64,000 nucleotides of DNA, from contig JAJPKO010000010.1 in assembly GCA_021323655.1 (NCBI GenBank), forward strand, positions 62,001 to 126,000. The letters run 5' to 3'. The first letter of the stretch is position 1, and every line of letters starts with the position of its first letter. This document shows, one piece after another, positions 38,631 through 44,333 of this stretch. The position numbers and the translations under genes were made by a program. Under the pieces are notes generated by a model. It was not told where the DNA came from. It searched no databases and saw nothing but the letters and a program-made list of their open reading frames with translations. This DNA is from Acidobacteriaceae bacterium (lineage in GTDB: Bacteria; Acidobacteriota; Terriglobia; Terriglobales; Acidobacteriaceae).

Positions 38631-38696
38631 AAAGATTGCGTGCATCAAAAAAGATTGCGTGCATTAAAATTCATGGAAAAGATTGCGTGCATCAAA
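38631..38696. repeat. Three 19-bp direct repeats in a divergent promoter region
   Basis: AAAGATTGCGTGCAT[CT]AAA occurs at 38631-38649, 38650-38668 (adjacent) and 38678-38696. Copies 1 and 3 are identical; copy 2 has one change. The short TCATGG lies after copies 2 and 3. They fill the gap between fpr and the TonB receptor gene. Confidence 0.9.
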
Positions 38697-38742
38697 GCTC
38701 ATGGGAACTTAAGTGTATTGTAGCTAGCTTTTACTTATTCTC

Positions 38743-41202
38743 ATGCCGCGTCCCCGTCTGGCAAGTGGATTGTACCTGGCGCTCCTTCTCGCTGGAATGG
38801 GCGCGCGTCCCATCTTCGCGCAGACGCATGTTCTTCTTACCGTGGTGGACGAAACCGGACTTCCTGTGCCCGGCGCTCAGGTCACTATTCGCGAGCCAGA
38901 CCGCCCCGCTCTCCAGTTGCAAAGCGATTACGCTGGACGATGCGCCTTCACTCTGCGGCAGGACCAACCTTATGACGCCATCGCTACCAAACCCGGGTTC
39001 TATCAGGTAACAAGTCCGGCCATTGATCCCAGTCTCACTGCCCTTCAGTTGGTCCTCGAGCATGAACAGATCATCCGCACTCAGGTGAATGTTACAGCTT
39101 CCCCTGTAGGCATTGACCCGGAACAGACCTCAGACAAAAGCACGATGAACACGCCGGAGATTGTGAATGTTCCCTATCCAACCTCCCGCGACATCCGCAA
39201 TCTTCTGCCCTTCAATCCAGGTGTGGTGCAGGATGCTTCCGGACAGGTGCATATCGCCGGCTCAGAAACCTACGCCACACTGGACATGCTCGACGGCTTC
39301 GACATCCGCTCGCCCGTAAGCGGAATGCTCGCAATGCGAGTCAGCGCCGACGCTGTGCGGTCCATTGATGTTGAGAGCACCCGCTATCCGGTGGAGTTCG
39401 GCCGCAGCACCGGCGGCGCTGTCGCCTTCTATACCGGAATGGGTGACAACCGGTTCCGGTTCAACGCGACCAACTTTATCCCCTCGTTTCATAATGTCAA
39501 CGGCATTCGCTTTGACAAATACGTGCCGCGCTTCACCTTTTCCGGCCCGATCAAGCCTGACCGCGCCTGGTTCTTCGACGGCCTGGAAACTGAGTACGAC
39601 AGCATCTACATCAAGGAGCTTCCATCCGGCGCAAACACAAACAACCTGATCCGCGGCAGCAACCTGATCAAAGCACAGGTCAACCTTACGACCGCCAATA
39701 TTCTTTCCGGCGGATTTTTGCTCAACGATTACCACTCGCCTTACGACGGCATCTCTGCGTTGACTCCGCAGCAGAGCACGACAAAGCGCGATACTGTGGC
39801 CTGGCTTCCCTACCTGCGCGAACAGCACAGCTTTCACAATGGCGCGCTGCTTGATACCGGATTCGCGCTGCTCCGCTTTCGCGACGGCTATGAGCCGCGC
39901 GGAACACTTCCCTATGCGCTCACTCCAGAGATTTCTCAGGGTAGTTATTTCGAAAGCGCCGTCTCTCACTCGCGCCGCGAAGAAGCAAATGCAGTCCTAT
40001 TTCTGCCTCCGCGCCACTGGCTCGGACGCCATGATCTCAAAGCAGGCATGGACCTGGACCACATCACCTTCAGCAATGACTTTACTCGCGCGCCCATCCG
40101 CTATCTGCGCGAAGACGGCACTCTTCTCCGCCAAAGCATCTTTCCTTCACTGCCTGCCTTTACTCGCCACAACCTGGAAACCGGAGCTTACGCAGAAGAC
40201 CGCTGGCTCATCCATAACCAGCTTCTGTTTGAGCCCGGCCTTCGCTTCGACTGGGACGAGGTCCTGCGCAGGCCGCTCTTTTCTCCGCGCTTCGCACTCG
40301 TCTATTCGCCTGTCGGCGCAGAAGCAAAGACGAAGATCTCCGCCGGAGCAGGCCTCTACTACGACCACACCCAACTCGAATTCCTTCAGCGCGCCCTCGC
40401 AGGAGTGCGGTATGACACTTACTATGCCGCAGACGGGATGACGCCTGTGACTGGTCCGCTTGAGACCACGTTTCAGGCCCGGCCCGCCACGCTGCATCCA
40501 ACGCGCGCCATCAACTGGAGTCTGGGCGTGGAACGGAAGCTCCCGTGGAATATTTACGGAGGCGTCGATTTCCTGCAGAAGCGCATGGCCAATGGCTGGG
40601 TCTATCAGAACGTGGACGCGCCGGGGGCCTTGTCGGGCACGTACCTGCTGAGCGACCGCAGGCATGACCGCTATACCGCCGTCGAAGTCAGCGCGCGAAG
40701 GACTTTCGCCAACGGCTACACGCTGTTCGGTTCCTATACGCGCTCTTCAGCGCGTACCAATGCTGCCATTGACTACATGCCTGCAATCTCGCTCCTCGGC
40801 CCGCAGCAAAAAGGCCCTCTGGCATGGGACACGCCGAACCGCGTCGTCTCCTGGGGGTGGCTCCCCTTTTTTGTGCCGTGGTTCAGGCATAACTGGGATT
40901 TCGTCTACACCCTTCAGTGGCAGTCCGGATTTCCCTACACCTCAATCAACGCAAACCGGCAGGTGGTGGGCCCTCCGGGATCAAAGCGCTTTCCTGACTT
41001 CGTCAACTTCAGCCCCGGTCTGGAATGGAGATTCCACATTCGCGGCGCTTACTTTGGGCTGCGTGGCGTGCTTGAGAACGCCACCGGTAGCCAGAACCCC
41101 GCCATCGTGAACAACGTAATAGATTCACCCGCTTACGGCACCTTCAGCCAGCCCATGGGCCGGGCACTCACGGCTCGCATCCGTCTCATCAGCCAGAAAT
41201 AA
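38743..41202 (+). CDS. Oar-type TonB-dependent receptor with carboxypeptidase-regulatory domain
   Basis: The 819-residue protein has a signal peptide (LYLALLLAGMGARPIFAQ). A CarboxypepD_reg-like beta-sandwich follows (LLTVVDETGLPVPGAQVTI at about 30-110), then a plug domain (TSRDIRNLLPFNPGVVQDAS, ETYATLDMLDGFD) and a long barrel. The last residues (RIRLISQK) lack the usual terminal aromatic. Such Oar-like receptors are abundant in Acidobacteria and take up large or unknown ligands with TonB energy. No clear ribosome site precedes the ATG. Three 19-bp repeats occupy the upstream region and may be regulatory. Ligand unknown. Confidence 0.88.
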   Translation: MPRPRLASGLYLALLLAGMGARPIFAQTHVLLTVVDETGLPVPGAQVTIREPDRPALQLQSDYAGRCAFTLRQDQPYDAIATKPGFYQVTSPAIDPSLTALQLVLEHEQIIRTQVNVTASPVGIDPEQTSDKSTMNTPEIVNVPYPTSRDIRNLLPFNPGVVQDASGQVHIAGSETYATLDMLDGFDIRSPVSGMLAMRVSADAVRSIDVESTRYPVEFGRSTGGAVAFYTGMGDNRFRFNATNFIPSFHNVNGIRFDKYVPRFTFSGPIKPDRAWFFDGLETEYDSIYIKELPSGANTNNLIRGSNLIKAQVNLTTANILSGGFLLNDYHSPYDGISALTPQQSTTKRDTVAWLPYLREQHSFHNGALLDTGFALLRFRDGYEPRGTLPYALTPEISQGSYFESAVSHSRREEANAVLFLPPRHWLGRHDLKAGMDLDHITFSNDFTRAPIRYLREDGTLLRQSIFPSLPAFTRHNLETGAYAEDRWLIHNQLLFEPGLRFDWDEVLRRPLFSPRFALVYSPVGAEAKTKISAGAGLYYDHTQLEFLQRALAGVRYDTYYAADGMTPVTGPLETTFQARPATLHPTRAINWSLGVERKLPWNIYGGVDFLQKRMANGWVYQNVDAPGALSGTYLLSDRRHDRYTAVEVSARRTFANGYTLFGSYTRSSARTNAAIDYMPAISLLGPQQKGPLAWDTPNRVVSWGWLPFFVPWFRHNWDFVYTLQWQSGFPYTSINANRQVVGPPGSKRFPDFVNFSPGLEWRFHIRGAYFGLRGVLENATGSQNPAIVNNVIDSPAYGTFSQPMGRALTARIRLISQK

Positions 41203-41400: not shown

Positions 41401-41931
41401 CTACATCGCGTCTTGCAGGACCGGGAGCAGACCGGCGTGGCTGGTTTCGTAGAGGGCCAGCAGACGCCTGGTCATCAGGTAGTAGGCTGAGGCCGCCTGT
41501 TGGATGTAGAACGGAGTGCGAAGCTGGGTGCGGCGCAGGAGCATCTCTACCCGGATGCGGAATAAGGCGCGTTTGAGCTGGACTGCGTCCTGGCGCATAC
41601 GTTCGGTGACGATGACGCTTTCTTCAAAGTTCCAGCGTTGGACGTAGGCCGCCAGGGCGATCAGCAGATTGGCATTCCGGCGCATTCCGCGCAAACCTTC
41701 CATGCCGCCGATGAAGCCCCAGAGGTGTTCCGGTTCCAGCTTGAGCTGGTTGGGACGCGGCTCCATATAGTCGAGGGCCACGATTTCCAGTCCACGCGCA
41801 GGAACGTGCTGCAGTTGCGCGATAAGGTTTTCCCAGGAGACAGAATGCAGGCGGTGCGTTCTGACCTGCATCCAGACCAGTCCGGCAGCCAGTAGAACAA
41901 CGAAGGCGAGAAGCAGAAGAATCGGAATCAC
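41401..41931 (-). CDS. Membrane-anchored protein, unknown
   Basis: The 176-residue protein starts with one membrane helix (IPILLLLAFVVLLAAGLVWM). A soluble helical domain follows, with a conserved-looking LWGFIGGMEGLRGMRRNANLL stretch and many Arg/Leu helices (RMRQDAVQLKRALFRIRVEM). Start is GTG. It lies 9 nt downstream of the next membrane protein gene and is surely in one operon with it. No domain was recognised. The intergenic stretch between it and the TonB receptor (about 200 bp) shows no gene. Confidence 0.7.
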   Translation of the reverse strand: MIPILLLLAFVVLLAAGLVWMQVRTHRLHSVSWENLIAQLQHVPARGLEIVALDYMEPRPNQLKLEPEHLWGFIGGMEGLRGMRRNANLLIALAAYVQRWNFEESVIVTERMRQDAVQLKRALFRIRVEMLLRRTQLRTPFYIQQAASAYYLMTRRLLALYETSHAGLLPVLQDAM

Positions 41932-41940
41932 GACCAGCTC

Positions 41941-42723
41941 TCAACGGGGATTTTGGGCACCGCTAACCTGTGAAGCATCGTATTGCACTTTTTCGTGCAG
42001 TGCAACCAGGTATTTCTGCATTTCCGGGGAAAGGGGGCGCCGTTCCGGTTCCGGGAACCAGAAAGTGACGCTCCAATAAATGGTTGCGCCGATGTAGACG
42101 AAGATGCGGGCGTGCTCGAGGGTGTTGAAAACCTGTTTATTGACGGCGCCAAAGTATGTGTGGGCGGCATTGACGAGGGTAGAGGCCAGTGCCCAGGCGG
42201 TCAGGCCCTGTCCCAGACCCATTACATGGTTTCGCCATACCAGGCCGAGCCACTGGGCGGCAAACATCATGGCAAAAAAGAGCTCGCAGAAGAGAAGGCT
42301 GGTGAATAGATAGGCGCGTACTTCCCAGGCCACGAGAGAGGAGGGCGAAACGGGGTGCACCGCATAGGTCAGCAGAAATGCAATGGCACCGCCCGCTGCT
42401 CCGCACAGCAGGAAAGTAAAGCGCGCATCTCTCACCCAGGTCCCTGTAGGCCGCAGCACAATCCTGGCCATCTCAAATACGAGTGCCACCTGCAGGAGAA
42501 AATCCAGGGCGAAGGTCGTCCAGTAGATGACCGCATACCAGTGCAGCGAGCTGTACCGGTAGATGAGGAAGAGCGCCGGAGTTTCAAGGACGTAGTCACC
42601 AATGAGGATGGTGAAGACGGGAAACTCCTTCCAGCGTTTTTTGAAAAGCAGGACCAGCAGCAAAACGGCGTTCCCCAGGAAACTTGCAGCCCAGAGAACG
42701 TTGTCCAGCATGTCCAAATGCAT
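41941..42723 (-). CDS. Multi-helix membrane protein, unknown
   Basis: The 260-residue protein has about seven membrane segments (VLWAASFLGNAVLLLVLLF, VFTILIGDYVLETPALFLIYR, FLLCGAAGGAIAFLLTYAV, LFTSLLFCELFFAMMFAAQWLG). Aromatic residues and His/Tyr lie at the helix ends. It resembles families of unknown function seen in Acidobacteria. It heads an operon with the gene 9 nt downstream, and the repeat-peptide gene lies 69 nt upstream on the same strand. Function is not predictable. Confidence 0.7.
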   Translation of the reverse strand: MHLDMLDNVLWAASFLGNAVLLLVLLFKKRWKEFPVFTILIGDYVLETPALFLIYRYSSLHWYAVIYWTTFALDFLLQVALVFEMARIVLRPTGTWVRDARFTFLLCGAAGGAIAFLLTYAVHPVSPSSLVAWEVRAYLFTSLLFCELFFAMMFAAQWLGLVWRNHVMGLGQGLTAWALASTLVNAAHTYFGAVNKQVFNTLEHARIFVYIGATIYWSVTFWFPEPERRPLSPEMQKYLVALHEKVQYDASQVSGAQNPR

Positions 42724-42792
42724 AGCCGCATCTTACGCTGTTTCTGCGTGCGGCCATATCAGATTCTCAAAAATGTCAGCGCCCTCCCATCT

Positions 42793-43110
42793 CTAATGAG
42801 AAATTGGGCTGGGGTCGCCGGGACCGAATGCCAGTGCCGAGTCATGCCCGATGGGGCTTGGATCACCGGGCCCGAGAGCGAGGAATGGAGTGTGTCCGAT
42901 GGGGCTTGGATCACCGGGACCAAACGCGAACGATCCACTGCCCGGTGCAGGAGTGTGCCCGATGGGGCTTGGATCACCGGGACCAAACGCCGCAAAGTGA
43001 GAAATAGGACTGGGATCACCTGGTCCGGGCACAATGCTTGCAGCAAAGGCTGAGGGAGCAGAAAGGCACATGGCGACAGCAGGCAGTAGGAAGAGAGTCG
43101 CTTTTTTCAC
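42793..43110 (-). CDS. Secreted peptide of five GPGDPSPI[SG]H repeats
   Basis: The start is taken as GTG at 43110, giving MKKATLFLLPAVAMCLSA plus PSAFA, a textbook signal peptide, with GGAGA 6 nt upstream; a TTG at 43122 is the alternative. The mature part of about 80 residues consists almost entirely of GPGDPSPI[SG]H copies (five), separated by short Ala/Phe/Leu-rich linkers such as FAF and LAL, with a histidine at each unit end. Each copy repeats also at DNA level, so the array has grown by duplication. No known family matches. It may be a precursor peptide or a surface protein. Confidence 0.8.
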   Translation of the reverse strand: MKKATLFLLPAVAMCLSAPSAFAASIVPGPGDPSPISHFAAFGPGDPSPIGHTPAPGSGSFAFGPGDPSPIGHTPFLALGPGDPSPIGHDSALAFGPGDPSPISH

Positions 43111-43289
43111 AGTAGTCTCCAAATGCGCAAGAAATTGCGCTTGCGACTAGCGTATCTCCAGAAACTTTTCAAGTGAAGATATTTATTTTAAAAAACCTGC
43201 ACATTATTGCAAAATGCAATGTAAGGTGAATCCTGTCGCGCAGGTGCTAAACTGGCTTTTCCAACCTAATTTCTTTAGCGGAAAGACCA

Positions 43290-44333
43290 TTGCCTGAACA
43301 GATTTTCAGTGTGACCTATGCCGACGCCGGGGTGGATATTACCAGCGGCGACCGCGCCAAGCAGCGCATCAAGTATCTTGCCCAAAAAACATTCACACGC
43401 AATGTATTGAGTGAAATCGGCGGCTTCGGCGGCCTTTTCAGGTTGGATACGGCGAAATATCAGCAGCCCGTTCTGGTCTCAAGCGCAGATGGCGTAGGAA
43501 CGAAGCTGAAGGTGGCCTTCGAGCTGGGCATTCACCACACGGTCGGCGCTGATCTGGTGAACCACTGCGTGAATGACATTGCCGTGCAGGGCGCGACTCC
43601 TCTATTTTTCCTCGATTATCTGGCGACGGGGAAGCTGGATGGAGCTGTGGCGGAAAAGATCGTTAGCGGCCTGGCCGATGCGTGCCGCGCCAATGGATGC
43701 GCGCTTATTGGCGGGGAGACCGCGCAGATGCCCGGTTTCTATGCCGACGGCGAATATGATCTGGCTGGATTTATTGTTGGCGTGGTGGAAAAAGAAAGGA
43801 TCATCACCGGGGCCCATATTCAGGCAGGCGATGTACTGATCGGGTTGCCGTCTACCGGGCTGCACACGAACGGTTACTCGCTTGCCCGCAAGCTGCTCTT
43901 TGAAGTAGCGGGATACAAGGCTGAGCAATATGTGAATGCTCTCAAGGAAAAGGCCGGAACCGCTCTGATGAAGGTCCACCGCAGCTACCTGAGCGTGATC
44001 AAGAAGCTTACGGCCAGCGATTATGTGAAGGGCATGGCACACATTACCGGCGGCGGCTTTACGGAAAATATTCCGCGTATTCTGCCGAAGAACATTTCGG
44101 CGGTCATCGAGCTGGGTAGCTGGCCTGTTCTGCCTATTTTTGAGCACCTGCGCGAGCTGGGCAATGTTCCGCAGGACGAGATGCTGCGCACCTTCAACAT
44201 GGGCATTGGCATGGTCTGCGTGGTGTCGGCGGAGAAGTTCAAGCGGGTGAAGGCTGCACTGGAGCGCGCGAGTGAGAAGTTCTACGTGATTGGGCGCACG
44301 GTGAAGGGCGACCGCAAGGTGATCTATCAATGA
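43290..44333 (+). CDS. purM: Phosphoribosylformylglycinamidine cyclo-ligase
   Basis: PurM (AIR synthase) closes the ring of the purine imidazole with ATP. The 347-residue enzyme has the family start VTYADAGVDITSGDRAK, QQPVLVSSADGVGTKLKVA, VNDIAVQGATPLFFLDYLA and LIGGETAQMPGFY. The start is TTG at 43290 preceded by GGAAAG. It overlaps purN by 4 nt (ATGA), so translation is coupled. The neighbouring repeat-peptide gene is divergent. All key regions are intact. Confidence 0.96.
   Translation: MPEQIFSVTYADAGVDITSGDRAKQRIKYLAQKTFTRNVLSEIGGFGGLFRLDTAKYQQPVLVSSADGVGTKLKVAFELGIHHTVGADLVNHCVNDIAVQGATPLFFLDYLATGKLDGAVAEKIVSGLADACRANGCALIGGETAQMPGFYADGEYDLAGFIVGVVEKERIITGAHIQAGDVLIGLPSTGLHTNGYSLARKLLFEVAGYKAEQYVNALKEKAGTALMKVHRSYLSVIKKLTASDYVKGMAHITGGGFTENIPRILPKNISAVIELGSWPVLPIFEHLRELGNVPQDEMLRTFNMGIGMVCVVSAEKFKRVKAALERASEKFYVIGRTVKGDRKVIYQ

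Follow-up and report, generated by a model that had tools for sequence, protein, structure and literature searches.

The use of stand-alone seven-transmembrane (7TM) receptors for peptide signals is generally taken to be characteristic of eukaryotes, and the signals of Gram-negative bacteria are considered to be mostly small molecules; to our knowledge, little is known about cell-cell signalling in Acidobacteria. Among the described systems, the yeast alpha-factor precursor (MFalpha1) with its receptor Ste2 resembles the locus analyzed here in that a precursor with a Sec-type signal peptide contains several copies of a short peptide in tandem, with spacers in between, and is paired with a cognate 7TM receptor, putative in the present case; the central turn is P-G-Q-P in alpha-factor and P-G-D-P in the units of the window (the whole stretch of 64,000 nucleotides under analysis). 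The differences are that this locus is bacterial, its spacers end in Ala instead of KR/EA, the putative receptor gene lies right beside the precursor gene, and there is no G protein (we know of no reason to expect heterotrimeric G proteins in bacteria). No sequence homology with the alpha-factor/Ste2 pair was detected, so that the likeness is one of analogy, with a processing of the bacterial precursor that is putative.

The peptide quorum sensing systems of Gram-positive bacteria (AgrC, ComD, VirS) likewise include a secreted peptide and an adjoining multi-TM receptor in strain-specific pairs, whereas the present locus belongs to a Gram-negative family, encodes Sec precursors with repeated units, and carries a single-TM helical partner in place of a histidine kinase domain, which is found neither on the 7TM protein nor beside it. 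The 7TMR-DISM and 7TMR-HD proteins are similar in that they, too, are proposed bacterial 7TM receptors; the 7TM protein of the window contains neither the extracellular DISM domain nor an intracellular HD, kinase or cyclase domain and has no Pfam match. With the GPCR superfamily, it shares a predicted N-out 7TM bundle, a likeness of structure only, with no sequence match. A full-text literature search, with preprints and many subscription papers beyond its reach, retrieved no description of such a peptide/7TM system, and the cassette of a peptide, a 7TM protein and a 176-aa protein appears to be a bacterial equivalent of a hormone-receptor pair that has not been described before. In the window, it consists of the following elements (a slash marks the putative junction between linker and unit):

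42793..43110, minus strand: peptide-precursor gene, 105 aa, signal peptide and five units of the FGPGDPSPI[SG]H type
43039..43110, minus strand: predicted Sec signal peptide of the array protein, VKKATLFLLPAVAMCLSAPSAFA(A), cleavage site approximate
42997..43026, minus strand: unit 1, GPGDPSPISH
42955..42984, minus strand: unit 2, GPGDPSPIGH, preceded by HFAA/F
42892..42921, minus strand: unit 3, GPGDPSPIGH, preceded by GSFA/F
42844..42873, minus strand: unit 4, GPGDPSPIGH, preceded by PFLA/L
42796..42825, minus strand: unit 5, GPGDPSPISH, preceded by SALA/F
41941..42723, minus strand: 260-aa 7TM protein with a C-terminal helix, proposed peptide receptor (from the AF2 model, conservation, charge and co-evolution)
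41401..41931, minus strand: 176-aa protein with an N-terminal TM helix and a helical, presumably cytosolic domain, proposed transducer (AF2 pLDDT 87.8)

The five GPGDPSPI[SG]H units reported in an earlier note on this DNA are indeed present on the minus strand (starting at 43026, 42984, 42921, 42873 and 42825), as are the predicted signal peptide, which is evident in the sequence, and the two membrane proteins encoded downstream on the same strand (42723-41941 and 41931-41401). The earlier note listed these two proteins and drew no link from them to the peptide; they provide the key to the system. The open reading frame of the array starts with GTG at 43110 or, alternatively, with TTG at 43122, and its stop codon occupies 42793-42795; signal peptides were called throughout with a sequence heuristic of our own, in place of SignalP. 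The view that the protein belongs to no known family is borne out by Pfam, NCBIfam and PADLOC, with the peptide itself compared with Pfam and PADLOC.

As judged from sequence comparison, the array gene is real and conserved rather than a chance occurrence, because a syntenic orthologue with three units exists and the arrays are confined to two genomes of 299. The orthologue (L003:1492-1692), from the only other sampled species of the genus, encodes three GPGDP[CN]PLGH units, compared with five in the window, within the identical order of peptide, 7TM and 176-aa genes. In Acidobacterium sp. S8 (L093), the relative that comes next, the equivalent place is occupied by three FGPGGGIPxPIG[QH] units. 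A scan of 299 genomes of the class for GPGDPSP repeats, the check proposed in the earlier note, detects arrays in the window genome and its sister species only; elsewhere in the class, the DNA pattern is matched singly (GPGDPEPL and similar), at isolated places that do not form arrays. With the peptide as the query, a close-relative scan of all GTDB contigs yields no match, because the peptide diverges too fast, and it is the adjoining 7TM and 176-aa proteins that serve as usable handles. Weak peptide matches elsewhere seem to be due to chance or low complexity in those inspected, except for L003 and L005.

The DNA of the units had been described as nearly identical and the array, accordingly, as recently expanded. 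The former applies to units 2 and 3, which are one base apart, and not to units 1 and 5, which carry many silent differences from units 2 and 3; the latter is wrong for this array, where comparison of all pairs of units gives 62 differences at codon position 3 and 22 at positions 1 and 2, mainly at silent sites. By this pattern, purifying selection acts on the window peptide, and the copying of its units is not recent. Within the arrays of other loci, nucleotide differences are nearly all silent, with ratios of position 3 to the other positions of 229:0 (L094), 107:5 (L060), 32:0 (L078) and 29:0 (L097); this shows that the units are translated and constrained in sequence, and it contradicts a fresh expansion. 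Among homologous cores, the G-x-P-x-P core persists. In most arrays, an Ala precedes each repeated unit and mirrors the signal-peptidase junction before the first one, e.g., MFA/FPMGTNPLPRV..EAA/FPMG in L097 and AFA/DQPGPWPT..AVA/DQPGPWPT in L078, which suggests that the units would be cut out by a protease cleaving after Ala.

A family-wide search with the 7TM protein and a search with the 176-aa protein retrieve the same cassette. In two phylum-wide samples of 297 genomes, the 7TM superfamily is confined to Acidobacteriaceae (26 genomes, or 30 with a wider profile) and is near-universal among the Acidobacteriaceae genomes of the phylum sample. A short open reading frame that encodes a signal peptide and ends 15-220 nt upstream is found for 76 of the 84 distinct 7TM genes with enough upstream sequence, compared with 49 of 177 other genes of the same loci. 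This loose signal-peptide heuristic is crude and permissive, given that 28% of the control genes pass; hence a stricter version in which a P-x-P core is also required, with which the counts become 66/84 and 14/177, respectively (Fisher p 5e-31). Several of the failing loci are explained by tandem 7TM genes (L107, L116, L159), by a peptide located farther away (L119) or by a very long array (L128).

The upstream peptides are rich in Gly and Pro and differ in sequence at each 7TM locus. Genome G050 encodes eight 7TM paralogues, seven of which have their own distinct peptide (e.g., ADGPVPLCVPGKPCANR, GGPVPVPIPPASSSK and GGPGPVPPPTEPPSAVR). The core is amplified by independent routes, as in-gene arrays of 3-24 units with unrelated sequences or as tandem gene copies, in addition to loci with a single copy; single-copy cores, such as GGNDPPPP or GGTNPPPKG, occur at many loci. 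Examples of amplified cores are:

L097, Acidipila rosea DSM 103428: mature core FPMGTNPLPRVNEAA, 7 units
L094: mature core AVTGSDPMPKSKGGLTTI, 10 or more units
L082: mature core KGIIGSLPRPAGTLQA, 8-9 units
L128: mature core EGPAGTVRNPWGSVA, 24 units
L078: mature core DQPGPWPT, 6 units
L216: mature core LAMSPASPHPVPPPA, 6-7 units
L096, Silvibacterium bohemicum S15: five tandem gene copies of SLMTAPEPLPPGVSRG
L103: five tandem gene copies of TLSGSDPRPN..

A conserved hydrophobic tail (..SVLSxLGL, MAVLGY, LTALGA) forms the end of the single-copy precursors and is absent from multi-unit arrays; precursors with such tails are encoded in L099-L106, L118 and L080, the last being a paralogue from the window's own genome (G000:C51).

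For the 260-aa protein, AlphaFold2 with 40 homologues predicts seven TM helices and a C-terminal helix (pLDDT 91.8). Its predicted topology is N-out/C-in by the positive-inside rule because Lys and Arg are enriched in the loops assigned to the cytoplasm (19% of positions, compared with 7% of periplasmic ones). Conservation is concentrated on the cytoplasmic side, with 2.71 bits in the cytoplasmic TM halves versus 2.20 bits in the periplasmic ones and 3.09 bits in the cytoplasmic loops (p 9e-8). Neither this protein nor the 176-aa protein matches any Pfam or NCBIfam family, scans of 16 and 25 members of the 7TM family give no match to the GPCR families of Pfam, and a PDB sequence search with the 7TM protein finds no match. 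In a structural alignment (VIA), the top 50 re-aligned rows are all GPCRs (Z 10.9-13.4 over ~190-200 residues at ~4 A), a range of Z that helical bundles can reach through arrangement alone; a Foldseek search with the model gives weak hits, the best one (E 0.03) to microbial rhodopsins. The GPCR resemblance of the model is thus a lead and not a case of membership, because the Foldseek E-values are weak and no sequence relation was found, and we claim no GPCR homology.

Several candidate assignments were rejected. The alignments show no conserved retinal-binding Lys in helix 7, as would be expected of a microbial rhodopsin; a histidine kinase of the AgrC/ComD type does not fit a protein of 260 aa in which Pfam detects no kinase domain; profile comparison shows no relation to HisKA_7TM (hhalign probability 0.2% against the 7TM family); and the 7TMR-DISM profile PF07695 matches no member and is near-absent from the relatives, with no hit above the cut-off. 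In the window protein (42723-41941), helix 3 has an almost invariant Glu at its inner end, with a Pro 8 residues further on (E..V..P, residues 84-92). Class A GPCRs have an E/DRY...P spacing; the similarity is probably a coincidence, with the Arg at +1 absent.

The gene for the 176-aa protein begins 10 bases after the 7TM gene. A search with this protein, using one genome per GTDB species, retrieves 38 loci, which all come from acidobacteria and, with few exceptions, carry the label Acidobacteriaceae or that of one of its genera, and a 7TM gene adjoins the 176-aa homologue at 38/38. Fold searches with the model of this protein detect generic helical bundles only, and an output domain is recognisable in neither it nor the 7TM protein. 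The 176-aa protein is proposed as the transducer since it is consistently encoded next to a 7TM protein whose cytoplasmic face is conserved. Remote homologues of this partner also follow distant 7TM proteins (hhalign 98%): at L071, L078, L142, L147, L203-L205 and L208, distant 7TM homologues are followed by a different single-TM helical protein of 177-217 aa, which, as far as profile comparison indicates, looks remotely related to the 176-aa partner. A 7TM subgroup of about 300 aa (Edaphobacter/Granulicella type) is seemingly without a partner.

Across 29 loci, with hand-picked peptide cores and a topology taken from the model, similarity among the peptide cores correlates most strongly with that of the periplasmic half of the 7TM protein (rho 0.50); the values for the cytoplasmic half and the 176-aa protein are lower (0.27 and 0.26, respectively). 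When the cytoplasmic half is controlled for, the periplasmic half retains a partial correlation of 0.43 (0 of 2000 permutations as high), compared with 0.03 in the reverse case, and with rate-matched subsets of positions the periplasmic half is favoured in 200/200 draws. The 7TM protein appears, from these comparisons, to have co-evolved with its peptide. Periplasmic co-variation together with a conserved cytoplasmic side, as observed here, is what would be expected of a ligand and a receptor whose intracellular coupling face is conserved.

The original suggestion that the gene encodes a precursor of short bioactive peptides is strongly supported by the signal peptide, the unit structure, the silent-site divergence, the Ala junctions, the conserved place upstream of the 7TM gene, and the similarity that tracks the periplasmic half. 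We consider it probable (at about 0.62) that the gene product is a multi-copy precursor of a peptide pheromone, and that this signal is detected by a cognate 7TM receptor acting together with the 176-aa protein. Under this scenario, the Sec pathway would export the precursor, cleavage at the Ala-ended linkers would release FGPGDPSPIGH peptides of ~11 residues, the free peptides would be sensed at the periplasmic face of the adjoining receptor, as the co-evolution suggests, and the conserved cytoplasmic face of the receptor would relay the signal to the helical single-TM protein. Several points count against this reading: the conserved ..SVLSxLGL tail of the single-copy precursors, missing from the arrays, is unexplained by a pheromone model, the Ala junction fails in some arrays (L060, L066, L093), and neither membrane protein shows a recognisable output domain.

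The main rival to the peptide-signal reading is an antagonistic, bacteriocin-like secreted peptide, with the 7TM and 176-aa proteins providing self-immunity or representing a conserved target. Small secreted peptides with species-specific sequences, a linked membrane protein and co-evolution are all predicted by this model, and a toxin/immunity pair would co-evolve as well. We nevertheless regard it as unlikely: the cores are short and rich in Gly and Pro, and most are neutral or acidic, which sets them apart from antimicrobial peptides of the membrane-active or cationic proline-rich kinds; the strongest conservation of the 7TM protein is cytoplasmic, as expected if it couples to an inner partner and not if it confers immunity; and the 7TM superfamily is near-universal in the genomes of the family instead of patchy. 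Slightly less likely still is a short protein that is not cut into free peptides and serves as a periplasmic or structural accessory of a membrane complex of the 7TM and 176-aa proteins. The constant gene order and the hydrophobic tail of the single-copy members, which could sit in the membrane, are compatible with such a role, whereas a range from 1 to 24 units along with tandem gene duplication is ill-suited to a stoichiometric subunit, and it is the units that are conserved, not the linkers or the total length.

The linkage of the genes and their co-variation could also be accounted for if the 7TM protein were an enzyme or exporter acting on the peptide. This appears improbable given that no catalytic or transporter family is recognisable, no obvious enzyme motif stands out among the conserved columns, the co-variation is periplasmic, and the peptides already carry Sec signal peptides. 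The metal-binding surface protein envisaged in the earlier note would find its ligand in the single His of each unit in the window species and its sister; with this His replaced by Gln in 2/3 units of the S8 orthologue and missing from most homologous cores, the idea is unsupported and highly implausible.

Beyond the putative peptide-pheromone precursor of the window, we propose tentatively, at somewhat under even odds, a family-wide peptide-hormone system of the Acidobacteriaceae in which tandem-unit, Sec-secreted peptides would act on dedicated 7TM receptors of GPCR-like fold and topology, with one ligand per receptor, up to eight receptors per genome, and a membrane-anchored helical partner, i.e., a system built like yeast pheromone or neuropeptide signalling. 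If so, this would be a new class of bacterial communication, limited to one abundant soil family, nearly universal there, and diversified into ligand-receptor pairs; it would also offer a way into cell-cell signalling in Acidobacteria, along with a peptide/7TM pair that is simple in genetic terms and open to testing.

A phage search was negative. The cassette and its surroundings contain further elements:

42724..42792, minus strand: 69-base spacer between the peptide and 7TM genes, with an RNA hairpin predicted to extend to the start codon of the 7TM gene (z -2.85)
43185..43230, minus strand: hexamers that resemble a promoter with no more than a weak consensus, upstream of the peptide gene
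43290-44333: purM (AIRS domains), divergent, on the other side of the cassette
38743-41202, plus strand: gene for an outer-membrane beta-barrel protein that contains a carboxypeptidase-regulatory-like domain (PF25183, PF13620); it converges with the cassette
38631-38704: short tandem repeat, imperfect, with periods of 19 and 28 bases, AAAGATTGCGTGCATCAAA, immediately upstream of the gene for the beta-barrel protein

A strong hairpin (z < -2) between the peptide and 7TM genes is predicted at 11 of 40 homologous loci (equivalents of the spacer hairpin are located at L108, L111, L115, L120, L123 and L125-L127) and may act as a terminator, an attenuator or a start-codon block that sets the peptide/receptor ratio. 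A conserved GTAAGAT element precedes the 7TM start at only 7 of the 40 loci.
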